From: Chondrosia reniformis
Taxonomy: Eukaryota > Porifera > Demospongiae > Chondrillida > Chondrillidae
Assembly (NCBI GenBank): GCA_947172415.1
Contig: OX359201.1
Span: 2,790,001 to 2,854,000 of the forward strand
DNA length: 64,000 nt
Direction of reading: 5' to 3'
Positions 4,401-64,000 of the stretch are shown here, piece after piece. Each line of letters begins with the position of its first letter. The stretch's first letter is position 1. The position numbers and the translations under genes are program-made. Below the pieces are notes generated by a model that was not told the DNA's origin, searched no databases, and was given only the letters and a program-made list of their open reading frames with translations.

Positions 4401-4884
4401 TGTCTTCTCTATCCTCCTCCCTACTTGCATCAAGCAAGACCCACAGGATATCCTCATGTGAGTCATCTAATACCTGAATGTCATACTTGGTGGTTAGGCT
4501 ATTATTAATTAAGAGGCCCACTCCCCCTGACCCACGCAAGGCTCTTTGGTGTGTCTGCTTCCGATTATTCCCTACCCACTTATCTACTTTTACAGACTCA
4601 TCATTTTGTAACCATGTTTCAGTCATAGCAAATACATCAGGTTGCAACACAGAGATAGCTTGGGCCCTTATGTCATTGGTTCTAACTCCCCGTTCTACAG
4701 CCCCTTTATCACAATTGGACCACCCCTGTACATTCCAGTAAACAAATTTGAGATTGCGCTGTAACATCACCTGGCCAGAAGCATTACTTAAGTTATGTAA
4801 GTTACCTACACTATCTACTTCTACGGGGTTAGGTGACCTACGACTAGACTTACAATTAGACACTGGGGAATCTGAACTCCCCAC
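1428..4884 (-). pseudogene. LINE ORF2: endonuclease + reverse transcriptase, broken
   Basis: The endonuclease lies at the N-terminus (4884 to about 3900). Its landmarks are WNVQGW, TETW, CGDLNAR, SVVDYC and the PDHSIISW box, which correspond to the catalytic N, E, D/N and H positions of APE-type nucleases. The reverse transcriptase follows, with AAGKDGV, IVPIPK, FIDLKKAYDTVDR (motif A, ~2770), GLRQGC (motif B, ~2600) and LLYADDLALI (motif C, ~2480). The C-terminus ends near EVEDSSHFILRC. The frame is open from 4884 to 4075, then a TGA stop sits at 4072-4074 inside the conserved YPKG-x-SVVDYC stretch. Frameshifts follow near 3200-3260, near 2985 (beside a GGATCC duplication), at an A-run near 2715, near 2450, and there is a further stop or shift near 1960-1985. 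The protein would nick the target and prime cDNA synthesis; this copy cannot make it. Confidence 0.85.
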
Positions 4885-4901
4885 ATAGACCTGTATGCTG
4901 C

Positions 4902-5874
4902 CTAGGTTGGGGTCTGGCTCCCCTCCCCCTGACTTCCTAAAAAAGACTTTGACTTCTGGCCCTGCTTGGAGCTAAAGACTTTCTCTAATTTCCAGTGCTT
5001 GTGTTTCCATCTCGATTGCATTTCGGCTAAAATCGACTCATTTCCTGAGATTTCAAACCACCAGATTTCTTTTCCGTCACACTGCTTAAAATTTCTAACA
5101 ATAGATAGGTTTTCGGCTTTATCATACAAGTTTACATATCGAGTTTTGATTTGTTCTACATATTGACCTCTGCACATTCCCCATAGTTTCCTCACCTGCT
5201 TCTTTGTTGAGTGGTGGCCTTCACTTTCCATAGGCTTCCTGCTTTCTTGCTTCTCACTCCTCACTGCCTCTACTCCTGTTCTCACCCTTTTCTTCCCTTT
5301 CTTTACCACTTCAGTCCATGAAGCCTGCATTGGCTTATCTTCCTTCTTTAGCTCCTTCTTCTGCTCTTCCATGCCACACTGTAGTTGTTGTACTTCACAC
5401 CCTAATTTCACTGTCTTCTCCATGGTCTCCTTCTGCTCATGTATCAGCTCCTTTAGCTGTTCAATTTGCACATCCTTGGTGGAGAGCATTTCTTCCAGGT
5501 GCACTATTTGTATCTTCATCTCCTCATTCCTTGTCTTCAGGGCCTTCATTCCTCCACTTCTTTTTCATTCTTCTCCTGTCTCCCATGCTGCAGTGCAGTG
5601 TCCTCCTCTTCTCTGGCCATCCTCTCCATCACGCAGAAAAAGCATTAGAATTGCACATCGCGATAACGTTCGGCGCGATTCGGTAACACGACGGGTGTGA
5701 CCAACACTTAGAACGGTCGCACTGGACCCAATCTTTCTTGTCTCTTGCGGCCGACTCCCTTTTCCTCCGGCAGGTGAAGTTAACCACTTCTCTGGTCGTT
5801 GTGCTACCCTTTCTGCCGACTTCGGTCAACTCAACATTCACGGCGACGTTTGAAACTTCGTCACTTCTATGCAC
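4902..5874 (-). pseudogene. LINE ORF1: PHD-like zinc finger plus coiled coil, frame-shifted
   Basis: The N-terminal part (5874-5629) contains WVQCDRSKCWSHPSC preceded by a TCRR segment, which resembles a PHD finger (C-x2-C ... W-x-QCD-x2-C-x-W-x-H-x2-C) with an incomplete first knuckle. The next frame (5549-4902) begins with a heptad-rich coiled coil (MKALKTRNEEMKIQIVHLEE and onward) and continues into a basic region. The two parts are in different frames and separated by about 80 nt, so one frameshift or small rearrangement lies between them. PHD fingers and coiled coils occur in ORF1 proteins of several CR1/L2-like LINEs, where ORF1 binds RNA. ORF1 stops 18 nt before ORF2 begins, the usual tight spacing. 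Confidence 0.65.
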
Positions 5875-28646: not shown

Positions 28647-31600
28647 TTACTTTAGAAACAAAAGCCTTAATGGAGAACCCTGTTACTTCTTGCCTTAGTT
28701 TACTAAGGCAAGGAGTATCTGGCTTGGACAACCCTCAGTCAGTTATGTTTTCCTTTCTTTGGGTTTTCAGCCGGAAGCCTCGGCTTTGCCTCCTTCCAGA
28801 AGCTAGCAGACAGGCGCACGTCGGGCCAAAGTTGGCCGTCATAATAGGAGGGAGTACCTCCATACACAAATCCACCACTACTTTCCAGAGATCAACAGGC
28901 AAGGACTGGGACAGGACTACTTATCGTCCAGGCCCCAATCCCTCAACAGATAGATGTCGCTTCAAAATCCTTACAGCCGAGCAGAGAACAGTTCTCTGCA
29001 TCGCTCTCATCACTTCTACTGCACCTTTTGACAGCTTTGGAATTACCCTAACGGTCTTCCAGGAGCGTGTCCACTGTCCCCAAAGCACCAATTATTATCA
29101 GGACTACCTTAATTCGGTAGCCCCTACATTGTTTCCTCATATCAGCCGCCAGCTTCTGGTACTTTTGGAACTTCTCTTGCCATCTTCCATTAATATTGGT
29201 GTCAGTAGGAACTGACATCTCAATAATGTAGATGGACTTACATAGCCGATCCTCAACCACTAAGTCTGGCCTTCTTTCAGTCATTTCTTCATCTGTAGGG
29301 ATACTAGGATCCCACAAGATTTTGAGAGCCCTATTCTCATAGACTGGTTTTGCTTCTAGTTTGTACCAAGGCTCTTCCTGCTTGAATCCATATTCTTTCA
29401 ACAGTCTCCACAACACTATCAGTATTGCCAGGTCATGTCTCTCTTTGTAGAGAGAAAATCCCTTGGGCTCACACATGTTTAGTATGTGTTTGACCGTTTC
29501 CATAGCCTTGCCACATTCTCTGCACATTAGGAGGCTAGAATTCCTCAGAATCCTATTTTGGTACCACCTAGTTTGCAGCACATCATCTTGGGCTGCAAGA
29601 ATCAGAGCCTCAGTTTGAGGTCTGAGTCTCCCCTCAGAAAGCCACACATAAGACTCCCTATTTGTGACTTGTCTGTGGTATGAGCCCTGGTGAGACTTTT
29701 TGGCTAGGTTACTTTTTAACCTTTCAGTCTGAGCCTCCCGGAGCTCACGTGCCACTCTCCTCCATTCTCTTGCACTATTTTGTGAGGGATCTGTCTTCAG
29801 CCACATTTCCGGTTCTAGCTCTATTCCGTGGCTTCTCAGTATCAATCTGGCTTCTTTCAAGACAGTCCTCCTCTGCTTTGAGCAATCCAGCCACTTATGT
29901 TGTTTAACCACAACAGCTATGAGTGGATAATTGGCAGTATGGAGGTATCTTGCCAGATTCACAACAGCCCTGTTGTGATCCAAAGGAAAACTACAGAGCC
30001 CTCTACCACCTTGAGAGCGAGGCAAGTTCACTCTTTCAATGGCAGAGTTATAGTGATGACACTGGTACTTTCTCATGATCTTTCTCACCATTCGGTCCAG
30101 TTTTGGAAGCTCACTTTGGGTCCACTTCAAAACTGGGTAAGAGTATCTCAATAGAGAGGCACACAACATGTTAGAGGCTTCTGCAGCATTCTTACCATTG
30201 AGGTGCGAGCCCCACACTTTGTGGAGTCTCCTCCTCAATTCGTTGATCAAGCAAGCTTTGACCTTGCTGTCATCTACCTCAAACAGTTGTTCTAGTCCTA
30301 GGTACTTATAGGTAGTACCTTTTTCAAGGCTCCTTATGGATTCTTCACTGCATTCAGGGTTGTCTGGGCCAGCCAGAACTTTCCCTTTTTGAATGTGAGC
30401 TGTTCCACACTTTCTCACTCCAAACCTCATGCCAATGGCATTTGAGGTTTTCTCCACACATTCCATGGCTTCCCTGAGTTTATCAGGCCCTCCAGCATAT
30501 ATCTTAAGGTCATCCATGTACAGCAAGTGTGATATGGTGTTCCTTTCCCCATTATGCCAGAGGGTATATCCCTTGGTTCTGTTAACAACTTGGGATATGG
30601 GAGCTATGGCCAGACAAAAGAGGAGTGGCGATAAGGAGTCTCCTTGGAAGAGTCCCCTGTTATATTTAACAGGGGTGCTCCTAACCACCTTTCCCGCAGT
30701 CTCAACTCAAGCACAGTAGCCCAGTGTTTGGAGAAGAGCTCTATAGACCTCCGGATCCAACCTTGGCACTTGATGGTTTTTAGCACCTTCATCACCCACT
30801 TGTGAGGGACTCTGTCATATGCCTTCTCATAATCGATCCATGCCACACTAAGTGGCTTGTCCATAATTTTGGCATCTAGACCAATTGATTGATCCAGCAG
30901 TAGACAGTCCACACAGCCCCACCTCCCTTTTCTCATGGCCCTTTGGGCCATAGGCAAAAGATCATTAGTGTAGGTGTAAGTGAGTAGTTCTGATGCAATG
31001 TATGCTGTGACAGCCTTGTACATTGTGTTGAGACACGCAATAGGTCGGTAGTTGGCCGCACTATTCGTTTCACCCTTGGGGATGAGTAGAGTGCGACCCC
31101 TTGTAAGCCAGTCTGGGACTGACAGATCTCTGCTCACCACCCTCCGTAGTACATCTGCCAAGGCAGACTGTGCAGAGGGGAGTGCTTTCCACAAAAAGTG
31201 TGAATGCCATCCGGCCCAGGGGCTGACCAGATTTATGCCCTTTTCAAGGCTTTTCTCAGTTTGGTCTCATCAATGCTATCGGGACCTTCAGAGGAGGTTC
31301 TACCCACCCTCTTTTTGGTTTCCTTTAGCCATTCTTTCATCCCTGGGTCGTCTTTGTTGACCTTACCAACAGTACCTACAATCTTTGTCCAAAAGTCTCT
31401 TACTAACTCAATTGAGGGAGCTTCATTGGAGGTTGAAACATTGCCATTCATCCGGAACTTCCTTTGGGTATTCCAAAGGTGGTTTTGTTCCTGGAATTTC
31501 CTGCGTTCAGCCGATCTTCGCTCTTGTAGGGTCCAGACCCTGAGTTTCCCCAGTGTCTGTTCCCGAGCTCTGATCAGCACATTCAGGTTTAATGAATGGA

Positions 31601-33007
31601 ACTCCCTCCTAAGCTTTCTTCGGAGTACTTTCTGGCGTTTGGTCATAGGATTATTATTCTGTTGACGCGCTATTTCCACATTCAACCGGGCAAGCAGTCT
31701 TCTAAACCTAAGGCCCTTGGCCTTCCTGTCACTTTTATGACCTTCCTGTCTCTTACTTCCTTTCTGATTATCTGATTTCCTTCCCTGGTTGCATGGCTGC
31801 GATTCGTAGGTTGTTTTTCCCCTCACAGCCATAGCAACAAAGTAGACCAGGCAGTTCAGGTGCCAGGCCGACCTAGGGCCTTCCAGCCATTCTTTCTCCA
31901 CCCAATCATTGGCCTCCTGAAGCAGTGCCATATCAACATGGTTGAACCGCACCGCCCCACAGGGTTTTCTATCAGAGAAATCTCCAGGTTTCTTTCGGAG
32001 ACAGGCATCTTTTGCTTTGCCTAAAAGTTGCATCAGTTGATCATTGCCACTTGTCCTGGGACTAGGATGATCATTTGTAGGAGATTCAGCAGCGGCTGCA
32101 GGCAGCTCACCATTTTGTTCAGTCACAGCCTGAACTTGGTGAAATTCCCCTTCTCCCTGGGCTCCCACACCTTCCTCCACAGTCTCAGTTAGGGTGGCTA
32201 AACCACGAGAGTCAGGTTCCACAAGGTTTAGTCTCGAGAGACCTTGACCTCTTCGGATTCTACTAGTTCTCGTAGTTAGCGCTACCTTTGTGGTTTTATG
32301 GTCTGGCATTGCAGCATTCCAAGCCTGGTACAACCGCTCGGCATACCCCTTTTCTATGGGCTTACTTTCTCGGTAGAGCTCCATGAGGATATTATCCCTC
32401 TGAAGGTTCCAGATCACCCCTTGGATCCTTCTCCTTCTAGAGGCACCTTGCGGTGCATCATTAACCAAATCTAAATCTCGGCTACCCGTTACTTGCAGCA
32501 CTCCGTCTCCTACCAAGTTCCTTTTGGCTTGGAAGGCAAGGGTTCGACCGGTCTGAGGCAAATGTGGGTATTTGCTCAGCCATTCCCGCTCTAAACGCTT
32601 CTGATAGCCACCTGTTTTGGGTTCAGATCGCTCATAGCAATCAAATAGTGCCCTAACCATTTCCTCGGTCTAGAGGGCTGGTTGGCCTGTCATGGGGACC
32701 GAAGAAAGGCTATTATATTCAGGTACATCTACCTGTGAGGCACCAGTGGAATCACCTATTCTGGTTGACCCAGGGTTTTCTTCACCACTGGTGCACCCAG
32801 GCCACAGCCTGTCTTGAAAATTTTCATTGTTATGACGTAACGTAACCCAGTGAAGCTGCCAGACGGGGGGTTAGCCCATACTGGCAAGGAGGCTGATTTA
32901 GCCACAGGATGCCACATGAAGTGCTAAGCACCCTGCCCCGTCAGGGGGTTGAACTGGACAATACCCATCCTCTTGTCAGCTCGGAACCTCTGCCTCCGAT
33001 TCCCACG
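28647..33007 (-). mobile_element. R4/Dong/Rex6-type LINE with restriction-like endonuclease, near complete
   Basis: A 4.36-kb non-LTR element on the minus strand flanked by a perfect 12-bp duplication, ACTCTAACACAC, at 28635-28646 and 33008-33019. Its 5' end starts GTGGGAATCGGAGGC and matches the second copy at 62770. There is one long coding region (29048-32693), a ~340-bp 5' leader and a ~400-bp 3' UTR. The YMDD reverse transcriptase box and a C-terminal CCHC plus PD-(D/E)xK-type nuclease place it with R4-like elements rather than APE-type LINEs. A full-length copy with an intact target duplication suggests a fairly recent insertion, but the reading frame is already damaged. Confidence 0.85.
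29048..32693 (-). pseudogene. R4-type LINE polyprotein (RT + restriction-like endonuclease), broken
   Basis: The N-terminal part (32660-31233) is a basic region with a conserved RLEREWLSKYPHLPQTGR stretch. The reverse transcriptase follows with PGPDGIH near 31210, YRPIACLNTMYKAV, AWIDYEKAYDRVP (motif A, ~30830), GLFQGDSLSPLLF (motif B, ~30640) and YMDDLKIYA (motif C, 30520-30494). The C-terminus has a CRECG…H…C knuckle (~29520) and RRPDLVVED…IIEMSVP (~29270-29210), the hallmarks of the restriction-like nuclease. The last 546 codons are one open frame. Lesions: a TAG at 32670-32672 just after an upstream ATG at 32691-32693 (the other copy has TGG there), a shift around 31190-31250 including a T-run, and a shift near 30690-30715. 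The upstream ATG is probably the ancestral start. Confidence 0.85.
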
Positions 33008-35282
33008 ACTCTAACACACAACAAGTAAACACAACTAGTTCATACAACTAGTATTTACAACTAGTACATGCAACTAGTACATGCAACTAGTATGTCCAAC
33101 TAATACATAAAACTTGTACATCCAACTAGTTCAAACAACTAGTGCATATATATAACTAGTGCAAGCAACTAGTGCATACAACAAATTCATAAATCTATTA
33201 GAAATAATATGAACGTACAAATATAATTAGTACATATATATAGTACATACAATTAGTACATACAACTAGGACATAACTAGTACATAACTAGTATATACAA
33301 CTAGAACTTACAACCGGTACATCAAACTAGTACATACAACTGTTACATACAACTAATACATACAACTAGAATACACAACTATTACATACAGCTAGTACAT
33401 ACAACTAGTACATACAACTAGCGCATAAAACGGGTTAACACAACTAGTTCACACAACTAGTACAAACAACTAGAACATACAACCAGTACATATAACTAGT
33501 ACATTGAACTAGAATATAAATCTAATACATTATTAGTACATAGAACTAGTACATACAACTTGTACACTAAACTAGTCCATGCCATTAGTACATACAATTT
33601 GTACATACAGCCGTTACATATAACTAGCACACAAATAATATAATTAGTACATATAAATAGTACATACAACTAGGGCATTCAACTAGTACATACAACTAGT
33701 ACAAACAACTAGTACACACTGCTAGTTCATACATCTCATACCTGCAGCTAGTTCATACAACTATTACATACAAATAGTACACACAACTAGTACACACTGC
33801 TAGTTCATACAGATAGTACGAACAACTAGTACATACAACTATTACTTACAACTTGTACATATAACTTGAATATAAACACATAACTAATACTTATAAATAG
33901 TACATACAAGTAGTATATACAACCAGTACATATAACTAGTACATAAAACTAGTAAATGCAACTTGTGCGTACAACAAGTACATGGAACTAGTACACACAA
34001 TTAGGACGTACTACTAATAACTACAACTACTATATACAACGAATACTTACAACTAGTGCATACAACTAGTACATATAACTTGAACATTCACTTATAACTA
34101 TTACATATAAATAGTACATACAAGTAGTACATTCAACTATTACATACAACTAGTACATACAACTAGTACATACAATTAGTGCATACAACTTGTATATATA
34201 ACTAAAACATACAGGAATAGCTACTTCATAGAACTAGTGCATACAACTAGTCCATACAACTTGTACATACAACTAGTACATACAACTAGTTGATGCAACT
34301 AGTACTTACAACTAGTACATATAACTAGTTCATACAACTAGTGCGAAAACTAGTTTATACGACTTGTACATACAACCAGTACAAATAACTAGTACATACA
34401 ACTAGTGTATACAACTAATACATACAACTAGTACATAAAACTAGTACACACAACTAGTAAATACCATAAATATAGTCAACTAGTACATACAACTAGTACA
34501 TAAAACTATTTGATGCAACTAGTACTTACAACTAGTACATATAACTAGTTCATACAACTAGTACGAAAACTAGTTTATACGACTTGTACATACAACCAGT
34601 ACAAATAACTAGTACATACAACTAGTGCATACAACTAATACATACAACTAGTACATAAAACTAGTACACACAACTAGTAAATACCATAAGTATACTCAAC
34701 TAGTACATACAACTAGTTCATAGATATAATACATACAACTAGTACACACAACTATTACACACAACTAGTACATATCGCTAGTACATACAACTAGTACATA
34801 CAACAAGTACAAACAACTAGTACGTACTATTAGTACATACAACTTGTGAATACACCTAGTATGTATTACTAGTCAATGCAACTAGTACATGCAACTAGTA
34901 CACAAAACATGTACATACAACTTTTACATAAAACCAGTCCTTTCAACTAGAACATACAACTAGTACAAAATACCTGTACATACAAGTAGCACACACAACT
35001 AGTACATTCAACTAGTACATATAACTAGTACATACAACTAGTATATACAACTAGTCCATACATCTACTACATACAACTAGTACATTAAATTAGTATATAC
35101 AACAAAAACATACAACTTGTACATACAATTGGTACATATAACTAGAAATTACACCTATAACTAGTACATGTATATAGTACTTATAAATAGTACATAAAGC
35201 TAGTGCTCACAGCTAGTACACACAACTAGTACATACAACTAGTACACACTACTAATACATACAACTAGTATATACAACTATT
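33008..35282 (+). repeat. 13-bp satellite, forward orientation
   Basis: Satellite array beginning with the second copy of the LINE target duplication (33008-33019). Confidence 0.9.
34270..34710 (+). repeat. 220-bp satellite duplication, two copies
   Basis: TGATGCAACTAGTACTTACA occurs at 34291 and 34511, and the whole 220-bp stretch, including an unusual ATACCATAA variant, is repeated with few changes. Recent local duplication. Confidence 0.8.
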
Positions 35283-35996: not shown

Positions 35997-36017
35997 CGCA
36001 TGTGGGACATGTCCGCA
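35997..36017 (+). repeat. Left terminal inverted repeat
   Basis: CGCATGTGGGACATGTCCG and two further bases. It pairs with 39340-39360 at 19 of 21 positions. Confidence 0.75.
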
Positions 36018-36522
36018 TTTCTGGAAAATCAAGTAGAAGAATATTTAACTAACACTTTTTTAATTGTCTTTTATTTTAGTGTAGAATTATTTTATATTTA
36101 AACGAATTGTATAGAATTGAAGCGCTATGCACGCTTAATACGTTAGTAAAATCAGCGCTTGGATTGCATGCTTAATGGCTGAGATATTCAGCCGTAAGTG
36201 ATAGTTACTTAATTTCCGAAAATGCCGTATTAGACATTGGAAATTACAAAAATGGAGTAAATAGTGACACCATTCAATGCGCAATAATAATATCTAACGA
36301 TTGTGTGTATACTCCTTTTAAATTCCTTTTAGTTTTCGAATAATAAGTGAAAATGTATTTTCTTACCTTTCTCTCAGGTCTTCAACACTTCAGATCTCAG
36401 CGAAACAAGAGAATATTGCAGGAGTACACATGGAACTCTTAGGCTGTTACCTTTTGAAGAGAATGAAATCATCCTCCATTGTCTGATAGTCATTTTCTTG
36501 TTAATTTCGTCAATTTGATCAA

Positions 36523-36735
36523 TTGCGGTGTATGTATAAGCAAGGAGATAGGCATATGTTGCCTTCTCAGAAGGGAAGGTATCATTCACTAGCCCGTTAC
36601 TTTAGGAAAAAGATCTCAGCTAAGAAATGTAGTTTAGATCTCCAAATAGCCCAAGTATCTCCCAATAATACCAAGTACAGTAAGTATGCTAAGGACATAA
36701 AGCTTTGCTTGAAATTGGTATGTAATCTTCATTAG
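36523..36735 (+). CDS. Hypothetical 70-residue basic ORF
   Basis: Open frame rich in K, R and Y (for example KGRYHSLARYFRKKISAKK). It is followed immediately by the 25-bp hairpin array and then a histone-type stem-loop at 36864. It is not a histone and I recognise no domain. A GT donor-like string (GTAAGTATG) inside at about 36680 could mean it is an exon. Whether it is expressed is unknown; it may be a chance frame. Confidence 0.25.
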   Translation: MRCMYKQGDRHMLPSQKGRYHSLARYFRKKISAKKCSLDLQIAQVSPNNTKYSKYAKDIKLCLKLVCNLH

Positions 36736-36860
36736 AGAGTCGTTGTGTGGCTCTATTATAAGAGTCGTTGTGTGGCTCTATTATAAGAGTCGTTGTGTGG
36801 CTCTATTATAAGAGTCGTTGTGTGGCCCTATTATAAGAGTCGTTGTGTGGCTCTATTATA
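36736..36860 (+). repeat. 25-bp tandem repeat, five copies, hairpin-forming
   Basis: Five copies with exact 25-bp spacing (36736, 36761, 36786, 36811, 36836), one base different in the fourth. Each copy can pair AGAGTC with GGCTCT. Across unit borders GGCTCT-ATTATA-AGAGTC resembles the histone stem-loop that follows at 36864 but with a six-base loop. Confidence 0.9.
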
Positions 36861-36863
36861 AAA

Positions 36864-36879
36864 GGCTTTTTTCAAAGCC
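36864..36879 (+). terminator. Histone-type 3' stem-loop 1
   Basis: GGCTTT-TTTC-AAAGCC: a six-pair stem with the UUUC tetraloop, matching the metazoan replication-dependent histone mRNA 3' end (GGYYYU-UNUN-ARRRCC). It is preceded by AAAA and followed by GTCAC, then TCAGAAGATT about 9 nt later, which sits where a histone downstream element would be. No histone gene is upstream; the nearest frame ends at 36735. Confidence 0.65.
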
Positions 36880-37104
36880 GTCACTTCTCAGAAGATTGGC
36901 CATGCATATGCTAATGAGTCTATCTGTTCAGATCAACATTCTACCCAGCCATGCATATTCCACTTCATTGTTATGCTGAAATGTATGTCAGTCATTAGTA
37001 CATACTTCACTAATTTACTGGTAATGAGGATGCATGAAAGACTTAACAAAGTCTAGGTATCCCTCTTTGCTGGCTGGTTAGTGTTCAATGTACATAACAT
37101 CAAG

Positions 37105-37965
37105 TCATTTTAAATTTCCCAACACAATACATACAGTTAAAGGATTTGTCCATATGGCTTCATTTCTAGGAACACCATCAAATGTCCCTGAATGGACAAT
37201 TTCTTTGGTGCTGGTCCCAATAGTGAACCACATATGGAACAACATAGATGAACAGACAAATACAGCTAAAGTTCCTTACATGTGCAAAATCATTTTAGCA
37301 AAAGTTTAGGTGACACAACACAATGCATACAATTAAAGGACTTACCTCAAAAGTATGGCTTCCCAAAGTGCTGAAGATTTGTCCATATGGCTTCATTTCT
37401 AGAAACACCACCTAATGTCTTTGAATGGACAATTTCTTTGGTGCTGGTCCCAATAGTGAACCACATATGGAACAACATAGATGAACAGACAAATACAGCT
37501 AAAGTTCCTTACATGTGCAAAATCATTTTAGCAAAAGTTTAGGTGACACAACACAATGCATACAATTAAAGGACTTACCTCAAAAGTATGGCTACCCAAA
37601 GTGCTGAAGATTTGTCCATATGGCTTCATTTCTAGAAACACCACCAAATGTCCTTGAATGGACAATTTCTTTGGTGCTGGTCCCAATAGTGAACCACATA
37701 TGGAACAACATAGATGAACAGACAAATACAGCTAAAGTTCCTTACATGTGCAAAATCATTTTAGCAAAAGTTTAGGTGACACAACACAATGCATACAATT
37801 AAAGGACTTACCTCAAAAGTATGGCTTCCCAAAGTGCTGAAGATTTGTCCATATGGCTTCATTTCTAGGAACACCACCAAATGTCCTTGAATGGACAATT
37901 TCTTTGGTGCTGGTCCCAATAGTGAACCACATATGGAACAGCATAGATGAACAGACAAATACAAT
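37105..37965 (-). repeat. 233-bp tandem repeat, about 3.7 copies, each containing an exon-like segment
   Basis: The string CTGGTCCCAATAGTGAACC recurs at 37211, 37444, 37677 and 37910, exactly 233 bp apart. The leftmost copy lacks ~37 bp. On the minus strand each full copy contains a 153-nt open segment (37346-37498, 37579-37731 and 37812-37964) followed by a consensus 5' splice site (GAG|GTAAGT). In the first two it is preceded by a 3' splice-like site (TTTAG|CTG). Its 51 codons keep phase. The peptide includes HLCCSICGSLLGPAPKKL; I do not recognise it. In the 37812 copy the AG acceptor is gone, and in the leftmost copy the donor is missing. Exon status is inference. Confidence 0.7.
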
Positions 37966-38129
37966 TAAATGATACTAATTTACAGGCAAGACAATAACAA
38001 TAAAGTGAAAACAAGGTAACAATTTGTTGATAATAAGGTCATATCTTCACCTTGAGTGCAAGGTTAAGGTGGTGAGAAAGTGAGTAAGCAGCCTATAATG
38101 GACGTGATGACACACCCTCCAACTAACAG

Positions 38130-38137
38130 TATAAATA
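38130..38137 (+). promoter_or_regulatory. TATA box of the CCCH gene
   Basis: TATAAATA lies 49 nt before the ATG at 38179. Initiation 25-30 nt downstream would give a leader of about 20 nt. Confidence 0.6.
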
Positions 38138-38178
38138 GACTTTACCCAGCATAGTTACAACAGCTGATACAGCAAAAA

Positions 38179-38505
38179 ATGGCAACCTTCAACTTCAGAA
38201 ATCTTGACAAATGCCAGATAACTATAATAAACCCTAAAGAAAACGGAGGAAAAGGAGGAAAAGGAGAAAAGAGAGCCAAGACCAAGAAGCCAGGGAACCT
38301 ACCAATGCTGTGTAGGTTCCAAGAAAAATGTAAAAAAGGTCCTGGAGAGTGTGAATACAGGCATGTGGAACCTTACCTGCTTGAGGGCTGCAAGAGGCCA
38401 TTCATGTTGTGTTGGGGGAGGCCCTGTACAAACCCGAAGTGCAGGTTTGTACATCTGGAGGAGGAAAAGGAACCAGCTGCAAAAAAGAGAAAAGAAGAAA
38501 AATAA
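38179..38505 (+). CDS. Small two-CCCH zinc-finger protein with histone-type 3' end
   Basis: A 108-residue intronless frame. Residues ~20-38 are Gly/Lys-rich (KENGGKGGKGEKRAK). Finger 1 is C-x5-C-x6-C-x3-H (from CRFQEKC to YRH, ~45-62). Finger 2 is C-x4-C-x4-C-x3-H (CWGRPCTNPKCRFVH, ~78-92). The C-terminus is charged and NLS-like (AAKKRKEEK). CCCH fingers usually bind single-stranded RNA, so a small nuclear RNA-binding protein is plausible, but no family is recognised. The start is supported by the TATA box 49 nt upstream and the A-run before ATG. The stop (TAA, 38503-38505) is followed after 22 nt by a histone-type stem-loop and no poly(A) signal is needed. The layout (TATA, very short leader, no intron, short trailer, stem-loop) copies a replication-dependent histone gene. 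It lies inside the TIR element. The frame is intact. Confidence 0.7.
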   Translation: MATFNFRNLDKCQITIINPKENGGKGGKGEKRAKTKKPGNLPMLCRFQEKCKKGPGECEYRHVEPYLLEGCKRPFMLCWGRPCTNPKCRFVHLEEEKEPAAKKRKEEK

Positions 38506-38527
38506 ATAAAAAGAAGAACTAACAAAC

Positions 38528-38543
38528 GGCTTTTTTCAAAGCC
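38528..38543 (+). terminator. Histone-type 3' stem-loop 2 (CCCH gene)
   Basis: The same 16 bases as stem-loop 1, here with the canonical flanks AAAC before and ACCACA after, then TCAAAAGATT where U7 snRNA would pair in histone pre-mRNA. It is 22 nt after the CCCH stop codon, a normal histone spacing. Confidence 0.75.
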
Positions 38544-38584
38544 ACCACATGTCAAAAGATTTCAACAATCTAAACAAACTAAAA

Positions 38585-38980
38585 TGAAACGCTACATTAC
38601 ACAAATCATCTGAAGAGTCTATATTAAAACACTACGTTACACAAATCAACTAGAAAGTCTAAAATGATACATTACACAAAAGTCTAAAATGATACATTAC
38701 ACAAAAGTCTAAAATGATACATTACACAAAAGTCTAAAATGATACATTACACAAAAGTCTAAAATGATACATTACACAAAAGTCTAAAATGATACATTAC
38801 ACAAAAGTCTAAAATGATACATTACACAAAAGTCAAAAATGATACGTTACACAAAGGTCTGAAATGCTACGTTACAACGTAGCATTTCAGACTTTCTAGA
38901 TGATTTGTGTAACGTCAACTAGAAAGTCTAAAATGATACCTTACACAAATCATTTAAAAAGTCTAAAAGGAAATGTTACG
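38585..38980 (+). repeat. 25-bp tandem repeat array with flanking degenerate copies
   Basis: The core at about 38657-38850 has around eight nearly identical 25-bp units (ACACAAAAGTCTAAAATGAT plus ACATT). Diverged copies extend on both sides, some reading CATCTAGAAAGTCT. An internal palindrome reverses the unit at 38857-38892. Confidence 0.9.
38857..38892. repeat. Perfect palindrome with 17-bp arms
   Basis: GTCTGAAATGCTACGTT (38857-38873) and its exact complement (38876-38892) are separated by AC. It could form a cruciform or a very stable RNA hairpin. Confidence 0.9.
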
Positions 38981-38996
38981 TTACATAAAACATCTA

Positions 38997-39173
38997 ACCT
39001 TCTCGTTCTTCTACTGAGGATTTTTGATTTCTATTCTTTCGCCGACCCTCGCCGTACCTTCTCGTTCTTCCACTGGAGATTTTCGATTTCTAGTCCTTCG
39101 CCAACCCTCGCCGTACCTTCTCGTTCTTCCACTGAGGATTTTCGATTTCTAGTCCTTCGCCGACCCTCGCCGT
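38997..39173 (+). repeat. 59-bp tandem repeat, three copies
   Basis: Copies start at 38997, 39056 and 39115 with a constant 59-bp spacing and a few substitutions. Each begins ACCTTCTCGTTCTTC and ends CCCTCGCCGT. Confidence 0.9.
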
Positions 39174-39339
39174 ACAAGGGGACTAATGAATCGATTACGT
39201 TTTCCACTCTGCTGCGTCATCATGACAGTAAATTATAATATCATTAACTTCTTGTGCGAGTCACATGACCTTCACGCTACTTCCTGTAAAATGTTCAAAT
39301 ATTTCGCACCTAAAAGGGGCTTCAAAAAATCGGAACTAT

Positions 39340-39360
39340 TACGGACATGTTCCACATGCG
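39340..39360 (-). repeat. Right terminal inverted repeat
   Basis: Reverse complement of the left end at 35997 with two mismatches. The satellite begins at 39361 with TTAGTTG, the same junction as at 59239. Confidence 0.75.
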
Positions 39361-39909
39361 TTAGTTGAATACACTAGTTGTATGAACTAATTGTGTATAC
39401 TAGTTGTATGTATTAACTGTATGTATTAGTTATGTACTAGTTGAATATACTAGTCCTAATAACTAGTTGTATGTACTAGTACTAGTAATATTTACTAGTT
39501 GTAGGTACTAGTTTTTTGCACTAGTTGTATGTTCTAGTACAAGTTAAATTTAGTAATTATAGGTATTAGTTGTATGTAGTAGTTGTATGTTATATATAAT
39601 TGTTTGAACTAGTTGCATGTACTAGATGTATGTACTAATTGTATGTAATAATTCTATGTACTAGTTGGAGTTCTAGTTTAATGTAGGTACTATTTATATA
39701 TACTAGTTATATGTGTATGTACTAATTATATGTACAAGTTATTGTACTAGTTGTATATACTAGTTGGGTGTACTAGTCGTGTCTACTACTTGTATGTTCT
39801 AGTTTTATGTACCAGTTGTATGTACTAGTTGTATTTACTAGTTGTATGCACTAGTTGTATGTACGAGATGTATATACTTTTTATGTACTAGTTACATATT
39901 GTAGTTTTT
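39361..39909 (-). repeat. 13-bp satellite, inverted orientation
   Basis: Start of the long right-hand array. It carries the higher-order marker AACTGTATGTATTAGTTATG at 39415. Confidence 0.9.
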
Positions 39910-40290
39910 GGGGCACTGCAGGGGCCCCTATATTGTTTTCAGAAATTCGGTTAACGTATGTCTTCCTGTTCGTAGTCTTGTATATATATATATATGTATA
40001 TATATCTGTCAAAAAATGGCGGACGTTCGGCTAGCTTTCATTTTCTAGCTTAAAATTAGCTTTCTCTTCCTTAGCGTAGAACATTGGACAAACGAAATGG
40101 ACTTAAAAACCACCCTTACTAATACTATGTAACGTAAAGCTTGCGCAAAAACGTTTTCTACGAGATACGGCCTTGAAAAATTGAGGGCCAACAAGAGTCA
40201 ATCGGAAATCGGTTAACCGTATATCTATGAGAACCAGCCAAGGAGTTCGAGTTTACTTACTTTTTTAAACTCGAACTCATTGTTTTGTAA
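39910..40290. other. Unique insert with GC-rich start and 12-bp hairpin
   Basis: Non-satellite DNA starting at a GGGGCACTGCAGGGGCCCC stretch, with a TA microsatellite at ~39979-40004 and a perfect inverted repeat GAGTTCGAGTTT / AAACTCGAACTC (40243-40254 and 40267-40278). No frame. Comparison with 43620-43740 and 57720-57860 shows that it replaced about 70 bp of the higher-order satellite unit. Not recognised. Confidence 0.5.
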
Positions 40291-43200
40291 ATTTTGTATG
40301 TACTATTAGTATTTACTAGGGTTATGTACTGGTAATATTTACTAACTTTATCCACTAGTTTTATGTACTAGTGTTATGAACTAGTTAAAGTTATATTTAC
40401 TAGTTATATGTGTATGAACTAGGTATATGTACTAGTTTAATGAACTGGTTGTTTGTACTAGTTGTATGAACTAGGTATATGTATTAGTTTAATGAACTGG
40501 TTGTATGTACTAGTTGTATGTACTAGTTGTGTGTTCTTGTGTCTACTACTTGTATGTACAGGTTGTATGGGCTAGTTGTATGTACTGGGTGTATTTACTA
40601 GTTGTATGCACTAGTTGTATGTACTAGTTGTGTGCACTAGTTGTGTCTACTTCATGTATGTCCTAGTTGTATGTACTAGTTATATGTAGTTGTTGTATGT
40701 ACTAGTTGTATGTGCTAGATACTAGATGTATGTAGGAGTTGTATGGACTAGTTCTATGTACTAGTTGTATGTACTATGTGTATCTACTATTTATATGTAC
40801 GAGTTATATTTTATGTATTAGTTATATATACTAGTTGCAAGTACTAGTTGTATGTACTAGTTGTTTGGACTAGAATTAGCTATTTTACTAGTTGTAGGTA
40901 CTAGTTGTATGTGGTAGTTGTATGTAGTAGTTGTATGTACAAATTGTATGTATTAGTAGTGTGTACTAGTTGTATGTATATATTAGTTGAATGTAGTAGC
41001 TATGTACTAGTTGAATGTTCTAGTTGAAGGTACTAGTTTTATGAACTAGTTGTAGGTACTAGTTGTTTGTACTAGTTGTATGTAATAGTTGTATTTACTA
41101 TTTGTAAGTACTAGTTATATGTTTGTGACCTAGTTATATGTACTAGTTGTATACACTATTATAATTACTGGGTATATGTGTATGTACTAGTTATATTTAG
41201 TAGGTGTATATACTAGTGATATGTCCTATTCATTTGAACTAATTATATGCAGTAGCCATGTACTAGTTCTATATACAAGTTGTACGTTCTAGTATTAAGT
41301 ACTCGTTCTATGAACTAGTTGTATGTACCAGTTTCTAGTTGTATGTACTAGTTTTATCAACTAGTTGTATGTACTATGTGTATGTACTATTTATAAGTGC
41401 CAACTTTATGTTTGTGTACTAGCTATATGTACTAGTTGTATTCGCTAGCTGTGTGTACTAGTTGTATGTACTATATATAATTTCTAGGTATATGTGTATG
41501 TAGTAGTTATATGTAGTAGGTGTATGTACTAGCTATATGTCCTAGTTGTTTGTACTAGTTGTATATACTAGTTGTATTTACTAGTTGTGTGTACTATTTG
41601 GTTGTACTAGTTGTATGTACTAGTTGCATGTACAAGTTGTATGCAATAGTTTTATGTGCTAGTTCTAGTTATATTTACTAATTGTGGTAGTTATGTTGGA
41701 GTTGTACATACTAGTGTTACGTATAAACAAGTTGTATGTAGTAGTTATATGCTAGTTGTATATACAAGTTGTAATTTCTAGTATCATGTACACGTGCTAT
41801 GAAGTAGTTGTAGGTACTAGTTTCTAGTTGTATGTACTAGTTGTATGCACTAGTTGTATCTACTCGTTGTATGTACTATGTGTATGTACTGGGTATAAGT
41901 TTGTGTACCAGTTAAATGTACTAGTTGTATGTACTAGCTGTATGTACTAGTTGTATATTCTATTTATATTTACAAGGTATATGTGTATTTACTAGTTATG
42001 TGTAGTAGGTGAATGTACTAGTTATATGTCTTAGCTGTTTGTCCTAGCTGTATGTACTACCTGAAGGTACAAGTTGGGTGTGCTAATTGTATATACCAGT
42101 TGTGTGTACTATTTGTCATGTACTAGTTGTATATACTAGTTGCATGTATTAGTTGTATGTAGAAGTTGTATGTAGAAGTTGCATGTACTAGTTATGTACT
42201 AGTTGCATATACAAGTTGTATGTTCTAGTTGTATATACTAATTGTTGATTCTTGTGCTAGTTATGCTAGGTACTAGATAGGTTCTAGTTGAATGTACTAG
42301 TTGAATGTTAAAGTTGTATGAATTAGTTGTATGTACAAGTACAAGTTATATTTACTAGTTATAGGTATCAGTTGTATGTACTAGTTGTATGTAGTACTTG
42401 TATGTTCTAAATGCATGAACTAGTTGTGTGTAGTAGTTGTATATACTAATTGTATACTACTTGAATGTACTAGTTGTATGTACTATTTATAGGTACCAGT
42501 TATATGTGTATGTACTAGTTATATGTAGTACTTGGGTACTAGTTATAGGTACTAGTTGTAAGTTCTAGTACTTGTAAAAGTAGGTACTAAGTAGGTACTT
42601 GTTGTCTGCACCAATTGCATATACTAGTTGTATATACTAGTTATGTACCAGTTGTATGTACTAGTTGTATGTATTAGAACAAGTTATAAAAAATAGTTAC
42701 ATTTACTAGTTGTATATAAAAGTGCAAGTTATATTTATTAGTTATGTTTATTAGTTGTATTTACTAATTGTTTGTACTGGTTTTATGTACTAGTTGTATG
42801 GACTATTTATATGTACTAGTTTTATGTGTATGTTATAGTGATAGGTACTAGTTGTATGTGCTAGTTGTATGAACTAGTGGTATGCACTAGTTATATGTTC
42901 CAGTTCCATGCACTAGTTTCTAGTTCTATGTAGTAGTTGTGTGTAAAATTAAAATGAACTAGTTGTATGTACTAGCTCTATGTGTATGTACTAGTTATAC
43001 GTAGTAGTTACTTGTACTAGTTATATGTATTAGTTTTATATACTAGTTGTATATACTAGTATATGTATTAGTTGTATATACTAGTATATGTACTACTTGT
43101 AGGTTCTAGTACTAGTTATACTAGGTACTAGGTGGGTGCTAGTTGTATGTACTAGCTCTAGTTATATGTACTAGTTCTAGGTACTAGTTGCATGTACTTG

Positions 43201-43972
43201 TTGAATGTTATAGTTGTATTTACTAATTCTATGTACTGGTTGTAGGTACTAGTTGTATGAACTAGTTATGTACTATATAGTTGTATGTACTATTTGTATG
43301 TACTCATAGTTTGTACTAGGTGTATGTACCAGTTATGAACAAGTTGTATGTACTAGTAATATTAACTAGTGGTATGTACTAGTACTGGCAATACTTACTA
43401 ACTGTAGCCACTAGTTTTATGTCCTAGTTGGACGTACTAGCATTTGTTTTATTTACTATTTGTTTGTACTAGTTATATGTACTAGTTGAATGTACTAGTT
43501 GTATGTACTAGTTGTGCGTACTAGTTGTGTCTACTACTTTTATGTACTAGTTGTATGTACTAGTTGTATGTACTAGTTGTATGCACTAGTTGTATGTACG
43601 AGATGTATGTACTTTTTTGTACTAGTTATATAGAGTAGTTGTTTGTACTAGTTATATATACTAGTTATGTAGTAGTTATATCTACTTGTTGTATGTACTA
43701 GTAGTTTTAACTACGGTTATGTACTAGTACTGGTAATATTTACTAACTGGAGCCACTAGTTGTTTGAAATAGTTGTACGTAATAGCACTTGTTATATTTC
43801 TCAATTGTAAGTACTAGTTGTATGAACTAGTTGAATGTACAAGTATAAGGTATATTTACTAGTTGTAGGTATTAGTTGTATGTACTAGTTGTATGCATTA
43901 GTTGTATGTTGTTCTTTTATGAACTTGTTTTATGTACTACTTGCATGTACTAGTTATATACTAGTTGTATGT
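40291..43972 (-). repeat. 13-bp satellite, inverted orientation
   Basis: Array with recognisable higher-order copying. For example, 42190-42400 matches 52350-52610 and 61345-61600. Confidence 0.9.
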
Positions 43973-44310
43973 ATCTTTGTAAAGGTTCATATTTCGACTT
44001 TTAAAGCGTCTAGAGACGCAGTTTTTTCCAATTCTTCTGTCTGCCAAACGTTTCGACCCTGGGGGTCTTCTTCAGTGACTGGTGGTGGTCTTCAAGGTGT
44101 CATTTATATGCATCTTTTCCCGCCATTTTAGATTACCTCATTAGTGATGTCATCAGTTACATCATTTCTGGAGGAAGGAGAGGTGAAGGGAGTATTCATA
44201 GAAAAGGGTTTCCAACCACTTCTTAGTACAAATCCCTGATCTAAGTTCATTCTTACCCGACATTGTTGGATCTTCAGGGCTTCCTTAATTCTTCTTCTGT
44301 ACCAGTTCTC
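43973..44310 (-). repeat. Penelope 3' pseudo-LTR
   Basis: Direct repeat of 46577-46912. It includes the end of the endonuclease region, a hammerhead-like core (CUGAAGA at 44075-44069 on the minus strand, then a GACCC/GGGUC stem, then GAAAC) and the terminal CTTTACAAAGATA. Hammerhead motifs in Penelope pseudo-LTRs are known. Confidence 0.75.
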
Positions 44311-44517
44311 TTCCCTCTCCACCACTCTGGCTTGGCTCCACTCAATTGGATGGCCGGTTTTTAGGGAGTGAACAGCTGAGCCATTGTTCACATCCCCCAT
44401 CCTGACGGCACATTTGTGCTCCGCCATCCTGACTTTTAGCGTTCTTCCAGTTTCTCCAGTGTACACTGCAGGGTAACTAGAACAGGGGATCTGGTAAACG
44501 ACACCTTTAATATCCAT
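44128..44517 (-). pseudogene. Penelope GIY-YIG endonuclease region
   Basis: This section reads as the C-terminal nuclease of Penelope-like retroelements: GVVYQIPC and VYTGETGR form the GIY-YIG core, followed by VEREENWYRRRIKEALK and GWKPF. The nuclease is thought to nick target DNA for priming. The same segment is present in inverted orientation at 47243-47632 and in part at 53140-53421 and 16243-16464. It is treated as part of a fossil element. Confidence 0.8.
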
Positions 44518-46912: not shown

Positions 46913-47827
46913 GGTGAAAGCTGGCATTGCCCTTTGCCTCAGGGACAGAGCGAAGAAGATCTGTGGCCCTGGATCCAGTGTCCTCCAAGAGGAAAAAGAG
47001 CACCTGAAAGTGGTACTCCAGGCCAACGGATACCCCAGTAAGGTTGCTGCTAGGCACATGAAGAAGAGACAATGGAACCAGGGAAGTAGGGTAGAGGGTG
47101 AACGTAAACTTTTTATTCCATATGTGAAAGGCCTCAGTGAAATGATATCCAGAACATGCCAGAAGATGAACATTGAAACCATCTTCACAAAGCAGAGATC
47201 ACTAGGAGTATTCTCTCTAGGCCTAAACAACCCCAGCCTACCATGGATATTAAAGGTGTCGTTTACCAGATCCCCTGTTCTAGTTACCCTGCAGTGTACA
47301 CTGGAGAAACTGGAAGAACGCTAAAAGTCAGGATGGCGGAGCACAAATGTGCCGTCACGATGGGGAATGTGAACAATGGCTCAGCTGTTCACTCCCTAAA
47401 AACCGGCCATCCAATTGAGTGGAGCCAAGCCAGAGTGGTGGAGAGGGAAGAGAACTGGTACAGAAGAAGAATTAAGGAAGCCCTGAAGATCCAACAATGT
47501 CGGGTAAGAATGAACTTAGATCAAGGATTTGTACTAAGAAGTGGTTGGAAACCCTTTTCTATGAATACTCCCTTCACCTCTCCTTCCTCCGGAAATGATG
47601 TAACCGATGACATCACTAATGAGGTAATCTAAAATGGCGTGAAAAGATGCCTATAAGTGAAGACACCTTGAAGACAACCACCAGTCACTGAAGAAGACCC
47701 CCAGGGTCGAAACATTTGGCAGACAGAAGAATTGGAAAAAATTGTGTCTCTAGACGCTCTAAAAGTCGAAAGATGAACCTTTGCAAAGATAAGTTCGACG
47801 CAGTTAGAAGAAATCCTTATTCCATTA
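46913..47827 (+). mobile_element. Inverted 3' portion of the Penelope-like element
   Basis: Plus-strand copy of the segment between the RT and the 3' end, including the endonuclease region (47243-47632) and the pseudo-LTR with hammerhead-like core (47688-47713). Together with the minus-strand body it gives the element inverted outer ends. Confidence 0.75.
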
Positions 47828-62769: not shown

Positions 62770-64000
62770 GTGGGAATTGGAGGCTGTGGTTCCGAGCTGA
62801 CAAGAGGATGGGTATTGTCCAGTTCAACCCCCCGACGGGGCAGGGTGCTTAGCCCTTCATGTGGCATCCTGTGGCTAAATCAGCCTCCCTGCCAGTATGG
62901 GCTAATCGCCCGTCTGGCAGCTTCACTGGGTTACGTTACGTCATGACAATGAAAATTTTCAAAACAGGCTGTGGCCTAGGTGCACCAGTGGTGAAGAAAA
63001 CCCTGGGTCAACCAGAATAGGTGATTCCACTGGTGCCTCACAGGTAGATGTACCTGAATGTAATAACCCTTCTTCGGTCCCCATGACGGGCCAACCAGCC
63101 CTCTGGACCGAGGAAATTGATTGCTTTGAGCGATCTGAACCCAAAAGAGCTGGCTATCAAAAGCGTTTAGAGCGGGAATGGCTGAGCAAATACCCACATT
63201 TGCCTCAGACCGGTCGAACCCTTGCCTTCCAAGCCAAAAGGAGCTTGGTAGGAGACGGAGTACTGCAAGTAACGGGTAGCCGAGATTTAGATTTGGTTAA
63301 TGATGCACCGCAAGGTGCCTCTAGAAGGAGAAGGATCCAAGGGGTGATCTGGAACCTTCAGAGGGATAATATCCTCATGGAGCTCTGCCGAGAAAGTAAG
63401 CCCATGGAAAAGGGGTATGCCGAGCGGTTGTACCAGGCTTGGAATGCTAAAATGCCAGACCATAAAACCACAAAGGTAGCGCTAACTACGAGAATTAGTA
63501 GAATCCGAAGAGGTCAAGGTCTCTCGAGACTAAACCTTGTGGAACCTGACTCTTGTGGTTTAGCCACCCTAACTGAGACTGTGGAGGAAGGTGTGGGAGC
63601 CTAGGGGCAGGGGGAGCTTCACCAAGTTCAGGCTGTGACTGAACAAAATGGTGAGCTGCCTGCAGCACCTATTGAAACTCCTACAAATGATCATCCTAGT
63701 CCCAGGACAAGTGGCAATGATCAACTGATGCAATTTTAGGCAAAGCAAAAGATGCCTGTCTCCGAAAGAAACCTGGAGATTTCTCTGATAGAAAACCCTG
63801 GGGGACAGTGCGGTTCAACCATGTTGATACGGCACTGCTTCAGGAGGCCAATGATTGGGTGGAGAAAGAGTGGCAGGAAGGCCCTAGGTCGGCCTGGCAC
63901 CTGAACTGCCTAGTCTACTCTGTTGCTGTGGCTGTGAGGGGAAAAACAACCTACGAATCACAGCCATGCAACCAGGGAAGGAAATCGGATAATCAGAAGG
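62770..64000 (+). mobile_element. R4-type LINE, second copy, 5' part (runs off the window)
   Basis: Starts GTGGGAATTGGAGGC exactly as the copy at 33007 does on the other strand, and stays closely similar to the window end, covering the 5' leader and the first ~300 codons. The satellite upstream ends ACTGGTT, the same phase and relative orientation as for the first copy. Confidence 0.85.
63083..64000 (+). pseudogene. R4-type LINE polyprotein N-terminal part, broken
   Basis: The frame begins MTGQPALWTEE and joins RLEREWLSKYPHLPQTGR as in the first copy. A ~16-bp deletion removed the internal ATG region present at 32660, so the upstream ATG is the only start here, which supports it as the ancestral one. 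A TAG replaces CAG just after GVGA (63602-63604). A one-base deletion lies near 63733 in the stretch matching QLMQLLGKAK. The reverse transcriptase lies beyond the window. Confidence 0.8.

Follow-up and report, generated by a model that had tools for sequence, protein, structure and literature searches.

The histone stem-loop has the consensus GGYYYU-UYUN-ARRRCC. Replication-dependent histone mRNAs are described as a unique class of transcripts without poly(A) (PMC8178370). The histone genes of C. elegans (PMC1924863) and Oikopleura dioica (PMC3156773) bear both a stem-loop and a poly(A) signal, and the latter source describes the U7-type downstream element, present in the element reported here, as absent in Oikopleura. 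For Ciona intestinalis it gives a total of only 27 histone genes, most of them interspersed (PMC3156773). Among the matches listed in a search of open-access PMC titles and abstracts, we found no earlier report of a histone stem-loop in a transposon.

The family A element described here shares with replication-dependent histone genes a 6-bp stem and 4-nt loop, CAAAC before and ACCAC after its second stem-loop, an AAAGAT-type element about 10 nt further on, a TATA box and a short uninterrupted frame, here for a CCCH zinc-finger protein. Unlike those genes, it encodes no histone, is a multicopy transposon and has AATAAA at the stop codon; its loop is UUUC, whereas the 14 host histone genes read have UCUA, UUUU, UUUA, UCUU or UAUA. 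Inverted ends, 2-bp duplications, a long transposase-like frame and deleted derivatives are features of cut-and-paste transposons that have terminal inverted repeats and an accessory gene, but the histone-type gene ends, the CCCH accessory protein and a long protein lacking any Pfam or PDB match set the element apart from these. As in C. elegans and O. dioica histone genes, a hairpin lies near an AATAAA; in the element the gene is not a histone gene and the AATAAA precedes the hairpin.

The window, the whole stretch of 64,000 nucleotides analysed, is C13:2790001-2854000 of a 117-Mb genome in 15 contigs. It contains a 3.36-kb copy of the element from which most of the first (transposase) gene has been deleted, with the following features:

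35997..39360, + strand: internally deleted copy of a family A transposon, ends placed by comparing copies
35997..36015, + strand: left terminal inverted repeat, CGCATGTGGGACATGTCCG, from the copy comparison
36513..36735, + strand: C-terminal remnant of the gene for a putative transposase of 1183 aa, from alignment to other copies
36864..36879, + strand: histone-type stem-loop 1, 128 nt after the transposase stop (Rfam RF00032 and pattern search)
36890..36896, + strand: downstream element AGAAGAT of stem-loop 1, at an offset equal to that in host histone genes
37143..37963, + strand: 3.5 copies of a 233-bp tandem unit, between stem-loop 1 and the CCCH promoter
38130..38137, + strand: TATA box, TATAAATA, its first base 49 nt before the CCCH ATG
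38179..38505, + strand: uninterrupted ATG frame of 108 aa with two CCCH zinc fingers, by frame reading and purifying selection
38501..38510, + strand: AATAAATAAA, two overlapping poly(A)-signal hexamers at the CCCH stop codon
38528..38543, + strand: histone-type stem-loop 2, GGCTTT-TTTC-AAAGCC, 22 nt after the CCCH stop (RF00032, 32.1 bits)
38554..38560, + strand: histone downstream element AAAAGAT of stem-loop 2, with ACCACA between hairpin and element
38654..38876, + strand: 25-bp tandem unit downstream of the CCCH gene
39342..39360, + strand: right terminal inverted repeat, CGGACATGTTCCACATGCG, complementary to the left end at 18/19 positions

The original prediction had described a non-histone CCCH gene in a mobile element, built like a histone gene, and this description stands. 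The two-finger frame runs intact and continuous from ATG to stop, the TATA box lies at the predicted distance upstream, and the perfect hairpin, the ACCACA and the purine-rich element follow the stop, completing a histone-type 3' signal of stem-loop, flanks and downstream element at host spacing. Three things go beyond that prediction: a second identical hairpin at 36864-36879 together with AATAAA at the CCCH stop, a putative transposase gene that also carries the signal, and further repeat families that do so.

By reading, the two CCCH fingers are C45-x5-C51-x6-C58-x3-H62 and C78-x4-C83-x4-C88-x3-H92, both fitting C-x(4-6)-C-x(4-6)-C-x3-H. Diverged homologues retain most of these positions, and degenerate copies have lost single ones. 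The protein resembles CPSF30/Nab2-type proteins in having two such fingers in tandem, with weak similarity to the CPSF30/Nab2 fingers (E 0.14-1.5); unlike them, it scores below every curated Pfam cut-off. Its structure model is uninformative (mean pLDDT 48). The protein is likely to be RNA-binding. The gene itself was rejected as a histone gene, given its CCCH fingers and the absence of any histone family among the Pfam matches.

Further genomic copies of the frame, which the prediction had proposed as a check, were found: 15 near-full matches to region 38000-38700 besides the window copy, giving 16 on several contigs at 85-100% identity. The TATA box is identical in 15 of the 16 copies as aligned. 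Full copies (L010, L011 and L020) measure about 7.3, 7.5 and 7.9 kb. The 19-bp terminal inverted repeats are accompanied by 2-bp target duplications (TG, TG, AC, TC) in four of the five copies with both ends read; the window copy, flanked by AT/TT, differs from these four. The element's left 160 bp matches at least 40 genome places (best 40 of 158 candidates), many at 74-78% identity; these may belong to an older group of elements, larger in number, whose ends are related.

Upstream of the CCCH gene, L011 and L020 contain an unbroken 1183-aa frame. Its product matched no Pfam family and no PDB sequence, its AlphaFold2 model is of low confidence (mean pLDDT 37), and homologues occur elsewhere in the genome at 30-42% identity. 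Because the assignment is based on position, size and copy structure, we call this protein a putative transposase. A viral origin was considered and rejected, as back-translated patterns found no relatives of the transposase or the CCCH protein in viral contigs.

Both genes of the element end in one identical 16-nt hairpin, GGCTTTTTTCAAAGCC, which matches the histone consensus exactly at 36864 and 38528 and is followed about 10 nt beyond by AGAAGAT or AAAAGAT. Stem-loop 2 was matched by RF00032 at 38523-38562 (32.1 bits, E 2.8e-7) at a relaxed threshold, the gathering cut-off being 34 bits, and an Rfam scan of the whole window at the gathering cut-off gave no match. Stem-loop 1 scored 19.6 bits in the window copy, also under the cut-off, and 25.4-29.2 bits at other sites among the matches listed. 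Among the best 75 of 23939 genomic candidates, which were the ones scored, two other family A copies (36.7 and 34.2 bits) and 11 family B copies passed the cut-off; matches at host histone genes ranged from 29.2 to 35.6 bits, with 13 of 15 under it. Folding energy by itself is ordinary, with z of -1.44 (38506-38565) and a second value of -0.67. It is the sequence match and the spacing that carry the case.

Among the 18 family A loci read (L009-L026), stem-loop 1 is present in 17 and deleted in L011; an eighteenth site lies in L053, and the stem pairs are intact at all 18 sites, with loop differences in two. Stem-loop 2 is exact in 13 of the 18 loci, has one change in L016, L021 and L026, and is degraded in L017 and deleted in L024. 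Wherever stops were read, in families A, B and D, the signal lies on the gene strand, 12-134 nt past the stop.

Comparison with the host covered 14 of 15 histone 3' ends (H3, H2A/H2B, H4 and H1), which typically read caaac-GGCTTT-loop-AAAGCC-ACCAC-...-AAAAGAT. The AAGAT motif begins 12-13 nt after the stem in 12 of these 14 genes, and at an offset of 12 in 18/18 stem-loop-1 and 15/16 stem-loop-2 sites, the rows having been sorted between the two by eye. Given this host-like spacing, the element therefore carries the bipartite histone signal and not the hairpin alone. A separate group of histone-domain matches at C4:2369649-3003685, with no stem-loop among the matches listed, may comprise replacement variants or other histone-fold proteins.

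The host encodes SLBP, seen as two adjoining PF15247 matches at C11:6546995-6547301, one of which contains a stop that is probably an exon border. For U7 snRNA, Rfam RF00066 gave no match over its cut-off in the genome; two U7 matches, at C6:4740682 and C8:3674133, fall within or next to transposase-related sequence and were set aside as chance. A U7-like pattern has a single genome match, L081 (C7:1515585), whose 3' hairpin is poor and which Rfam U7 does not match. Its 5' part is complementary, by eye, to AAAGAT and ACCAAT blocks that occur in the downstream elements of several host histone genes. Pairing with the stem-loop-1 element reaches -12.1 kcal/mol, a strength equalled by 4% of shuffles, and pairing with the stem-loop-2 element is no better than shuffles (0.30). 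Besides having this poor 3' hairpin, it pairs more strongly than 95% of shuffles with only 5 of 14 host elements. We therefore regard it as a tentative candidate for the host U7 and do not rely on it.

In each gene, then, a 6-bp stem with a UUUC loop, its flanks and AGAAGAT or AAAAGAT at host spacing follow on the gene's own strand. On this basis we consider it likely that several transposons have taken the whole histone 3'-end signal for their own use, and that their mRNAs are processed by SLBP/U7, lack poly(A) and are probably confined to S phase. We read the element as a DNA transposon that ends in inverted repeats, makes 2-bp target duplications and encodes a putative transposase and a small CCCH protein. 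Its nascent transcripts would be cut beyond the hairpin by the host SLBP-U7 snRNP-CPSF73 machinery, leaving mRNAs that carry SLBP in place of poly(A) and that accumulate and are translated mainly during DNA replication. The transposase and CCCH protein would thus appear in cells that are in S phase or dividing rapidly, as in the germ line and early embryo, and a possible gain for the transposon would be messages present in replicating germ-line or cleavage-stage cells.

Some features argue against histone-type processing. AATAAA lies over the CCCH stop and, in L020, directly before stem-loop 1, and the transposase gene may have a 5'-UTR intron (by reading, GTAAGT...TTTTTAG before the ATG), unlike histone genes. 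It is thus possible, though we hold it fairly unlikely, that transcripts of the genes receive a poly(A) tail at the AATAAA close to the gene ends, and that the stem-loop is either secondary (a back-up, or a determinant of stability or cell-cycle regulation) or a relic. The hexamers at 38501 and 38505 start 27 and 23 nt before the start of stem-loop 2, with the end of the overlapping pair 17 nt before it, ATTAAA occurs at 37332 and 38623, and the C. elegans and Oikopleura histone genes cited above offer a precedent for such a combination. Against this, chance alone makes AATAAA common in sequence this rich in A, and the hexamer is absent both from the window copy between the transposase stop and 37400 and at the CCCH stop of L022. 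Furthermore, the downstream element at U7-type spacing has been kept together with the hairpin, and a polyadenylated gene does not need it.

Purifying selection has acted on the CCCH frame. Comparison of L009-L012 with L018/L020/L024 gives a dS of about 0.27 and a dN of 0.040-0.054, a dN/dS of 0.15-0.19 (Fisher p 7e-5 for L009 vs L020), and the ratio is 0.22-0.31 for L009-L012 against L017 and L022. The transposase gives a dN/dS of 0.29 (p 1e-5, L011 vs L020). The frame-shifted copies L013, L014, L019 and L023 were dropped from these pairs as not meaningful, and within-group pairs have too few changes; a pooled CCCH ratio over all pairs, frame-shifted ones included, is 0.55 and means little. 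Within L018/L020/L024 there are 0 synonymous and 4-6 non-synonymous differences, as in dead copies.

Decay of the hairpin beside a conserved frame, which the prediction had named as evidence against itself, is seen in single copies (deleted in L024, degraded in L017) but not at the level of subfamilies, where both are conserved. Among copies with an open CCCH frame the hairpin is exact in 8 of 10; L013, L014, L019 and L023 retain it despite a shifted frame. The CCCH frame of L018 continues across the hairpin, and L011 combines an unbroken transposase frame with a deleted stem-loop 1. Across the 16 copies the hairpin has a diversity (pi) of 0.042, with 5 of 16 columns varying, and the frame 0.059. 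The hairpin is thus not exceptionally invariant across single copies, as expected if most are dead, and the subfamily comparison is the better test. Between the subfamily consensuses (L009-L013 vs L018-L020), all 92 aligned positions from the stop to 38600 are identical, compared with differences at 23/324 in the frame, 5/70 upstream, 2/40 in the 5' UTR and 4/40 further downstream. Set against 14 differences at 62 synonymous sites (L009 vs L020), the 92-nt block stands out (Fisher p 1e-6), although it could be a recombination tract.

Across the genome, the strict 16-nt pattern GGYYYTTYTNARRRCC has 95 matches, compared with 10 for a reversed control. By position, 13 of the 95 fall at histone genes, 32 in family A, 13 in family B, 12 in C-type sequence (four in family C and eight with the same 16-mer whose surroundings are unread) and three in family D. 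The other 22 are unassigned, and about 10 would be expected by chance; four were read (L047, L078-L080) and show no clear gene, although L079 matches L076 at 93% identity across 56 nt surrounding the hairpin.

Family B (L035-L046 and L048) is repeated in the genome and has exon ends that look like splice sites; according to a gene model made by reading rather than prediction, the final frame of L036 stops 76 nt before the hairpin. Families A and B have in common a downstream block of about 180 bp at roughly 80% identity. Between them the stem-loop and downstream element agree at 28 of 33 nt, with the hairpin itself at 16/16, whereas the sequence adjoining this signal is unalignable by eye. Family D (L049, L076 and L077) has a spliced gene that looks transposase-like by eye and lacks a Pfam match; its last exons are 71-72% identical and the hairpin follows the stop by 61, 23 and 36 nt, the L077 frame having an internal stop. 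Three of the four copies of family C (L050-L052 and L054) have two hairpins, 129 nt apart in L051; the loop of the second is 3 nt long and its downstream element is good. No convincing gene was seen in the four copies read, and family C and the eight unread C-type hairpins provide weak evidence. L050-L052 lie close to the 13-bp satellite described below.

The six 3' regions read from distant relatives (L055-L060) have no histone-type hairpin: L055 and L056, relatives of the transposase, have AATAAA 297-299 nt after the stop with no hairpin in the stretch read, and L057-L060 are four CCCH homologues. Acquisition of the signal therefore probably took place in the A/B lineage. It is improbable that the element simply picked up functionless histone 3' ends through recombination or gene conversion and that copies share them by descent. 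The copies are young, many are broken and single ones have lost the hairpin, as such a pick-up would allow, but each element has two sites, families B, C-type and D carry the signal in diverged or unrelated surroundings, and it is conserved both across the A/B split and between subfamilies. A decoy role, in which the hairpins titrate host SLBP or U7 rather than forming mRNA ends, is very improbable: some 60 repeat-associated strict matches (eight of them unread), as against 13 at histone genes, would suit a decoy, whereas wherever genes are readable the hairpins stand on the coding strand shortly after stops. A chance hairpin in AT-rich sequence, with which the unexceptional folding energy alone would agree, has next to no probability and is rejected because of the reversed-pattern control (95 vs 10 in 117 Mb, so that about 6e-6 matches are expected within 150 nt of a given stop) and the fixed spacing of the downstream element.

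That the related family B and the spliced gene of family D carry the signal too points to repeated use of the histone mRNA pathway by transposons of this genome. We lean slightly towards the wider proposal that several transposon lineages have taken over the SLBP/U7 pathway, in which case their transposase and accessory mRNAs, spliced ones included, would lack poly(A) and be restricted to S phase, and transposition would be coupled to replication. If borrowing of the histone signal is true, histone-type ends are not exclusive to histone genes, most such hairpins in this genome belong to selfish DNA, and a mobile element has a direct route to sense S phase. The transposons would also provide dozens of natural variants of stem-loop and downstream element, and the same genome offers a contrast in the diverged relatives of the transposase and CCCH proteins whose 3' regions, as read, are without the signal.

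The surroundings of the element are themselves repetitive. Arrays of a 13-bp satellite (ACATACAACTAGT type) flank it in opposite orientation at 33014-35280 and 39362-43973, and five of the 20 loci fetched (L009, L012, L014, L021 and L025) are ACTAGT-rich, which suggests an insertion preference or a shared history. Two near-identical frames in opposite orientation, at 44128-44517 (-) and 47243-47632 (+), contain the motif VYTGETGR and are, by eye, GIY-YIG-like, presumably as in Penelope-type elements. Reverse-transcriptase-like frames of non-LTR type, again by eye, occupy 29048-32660 (-), 1428-5549 (-) and 63083-63604 (+), the last being a truncated near-copy of part of the 31233-32660 frame.
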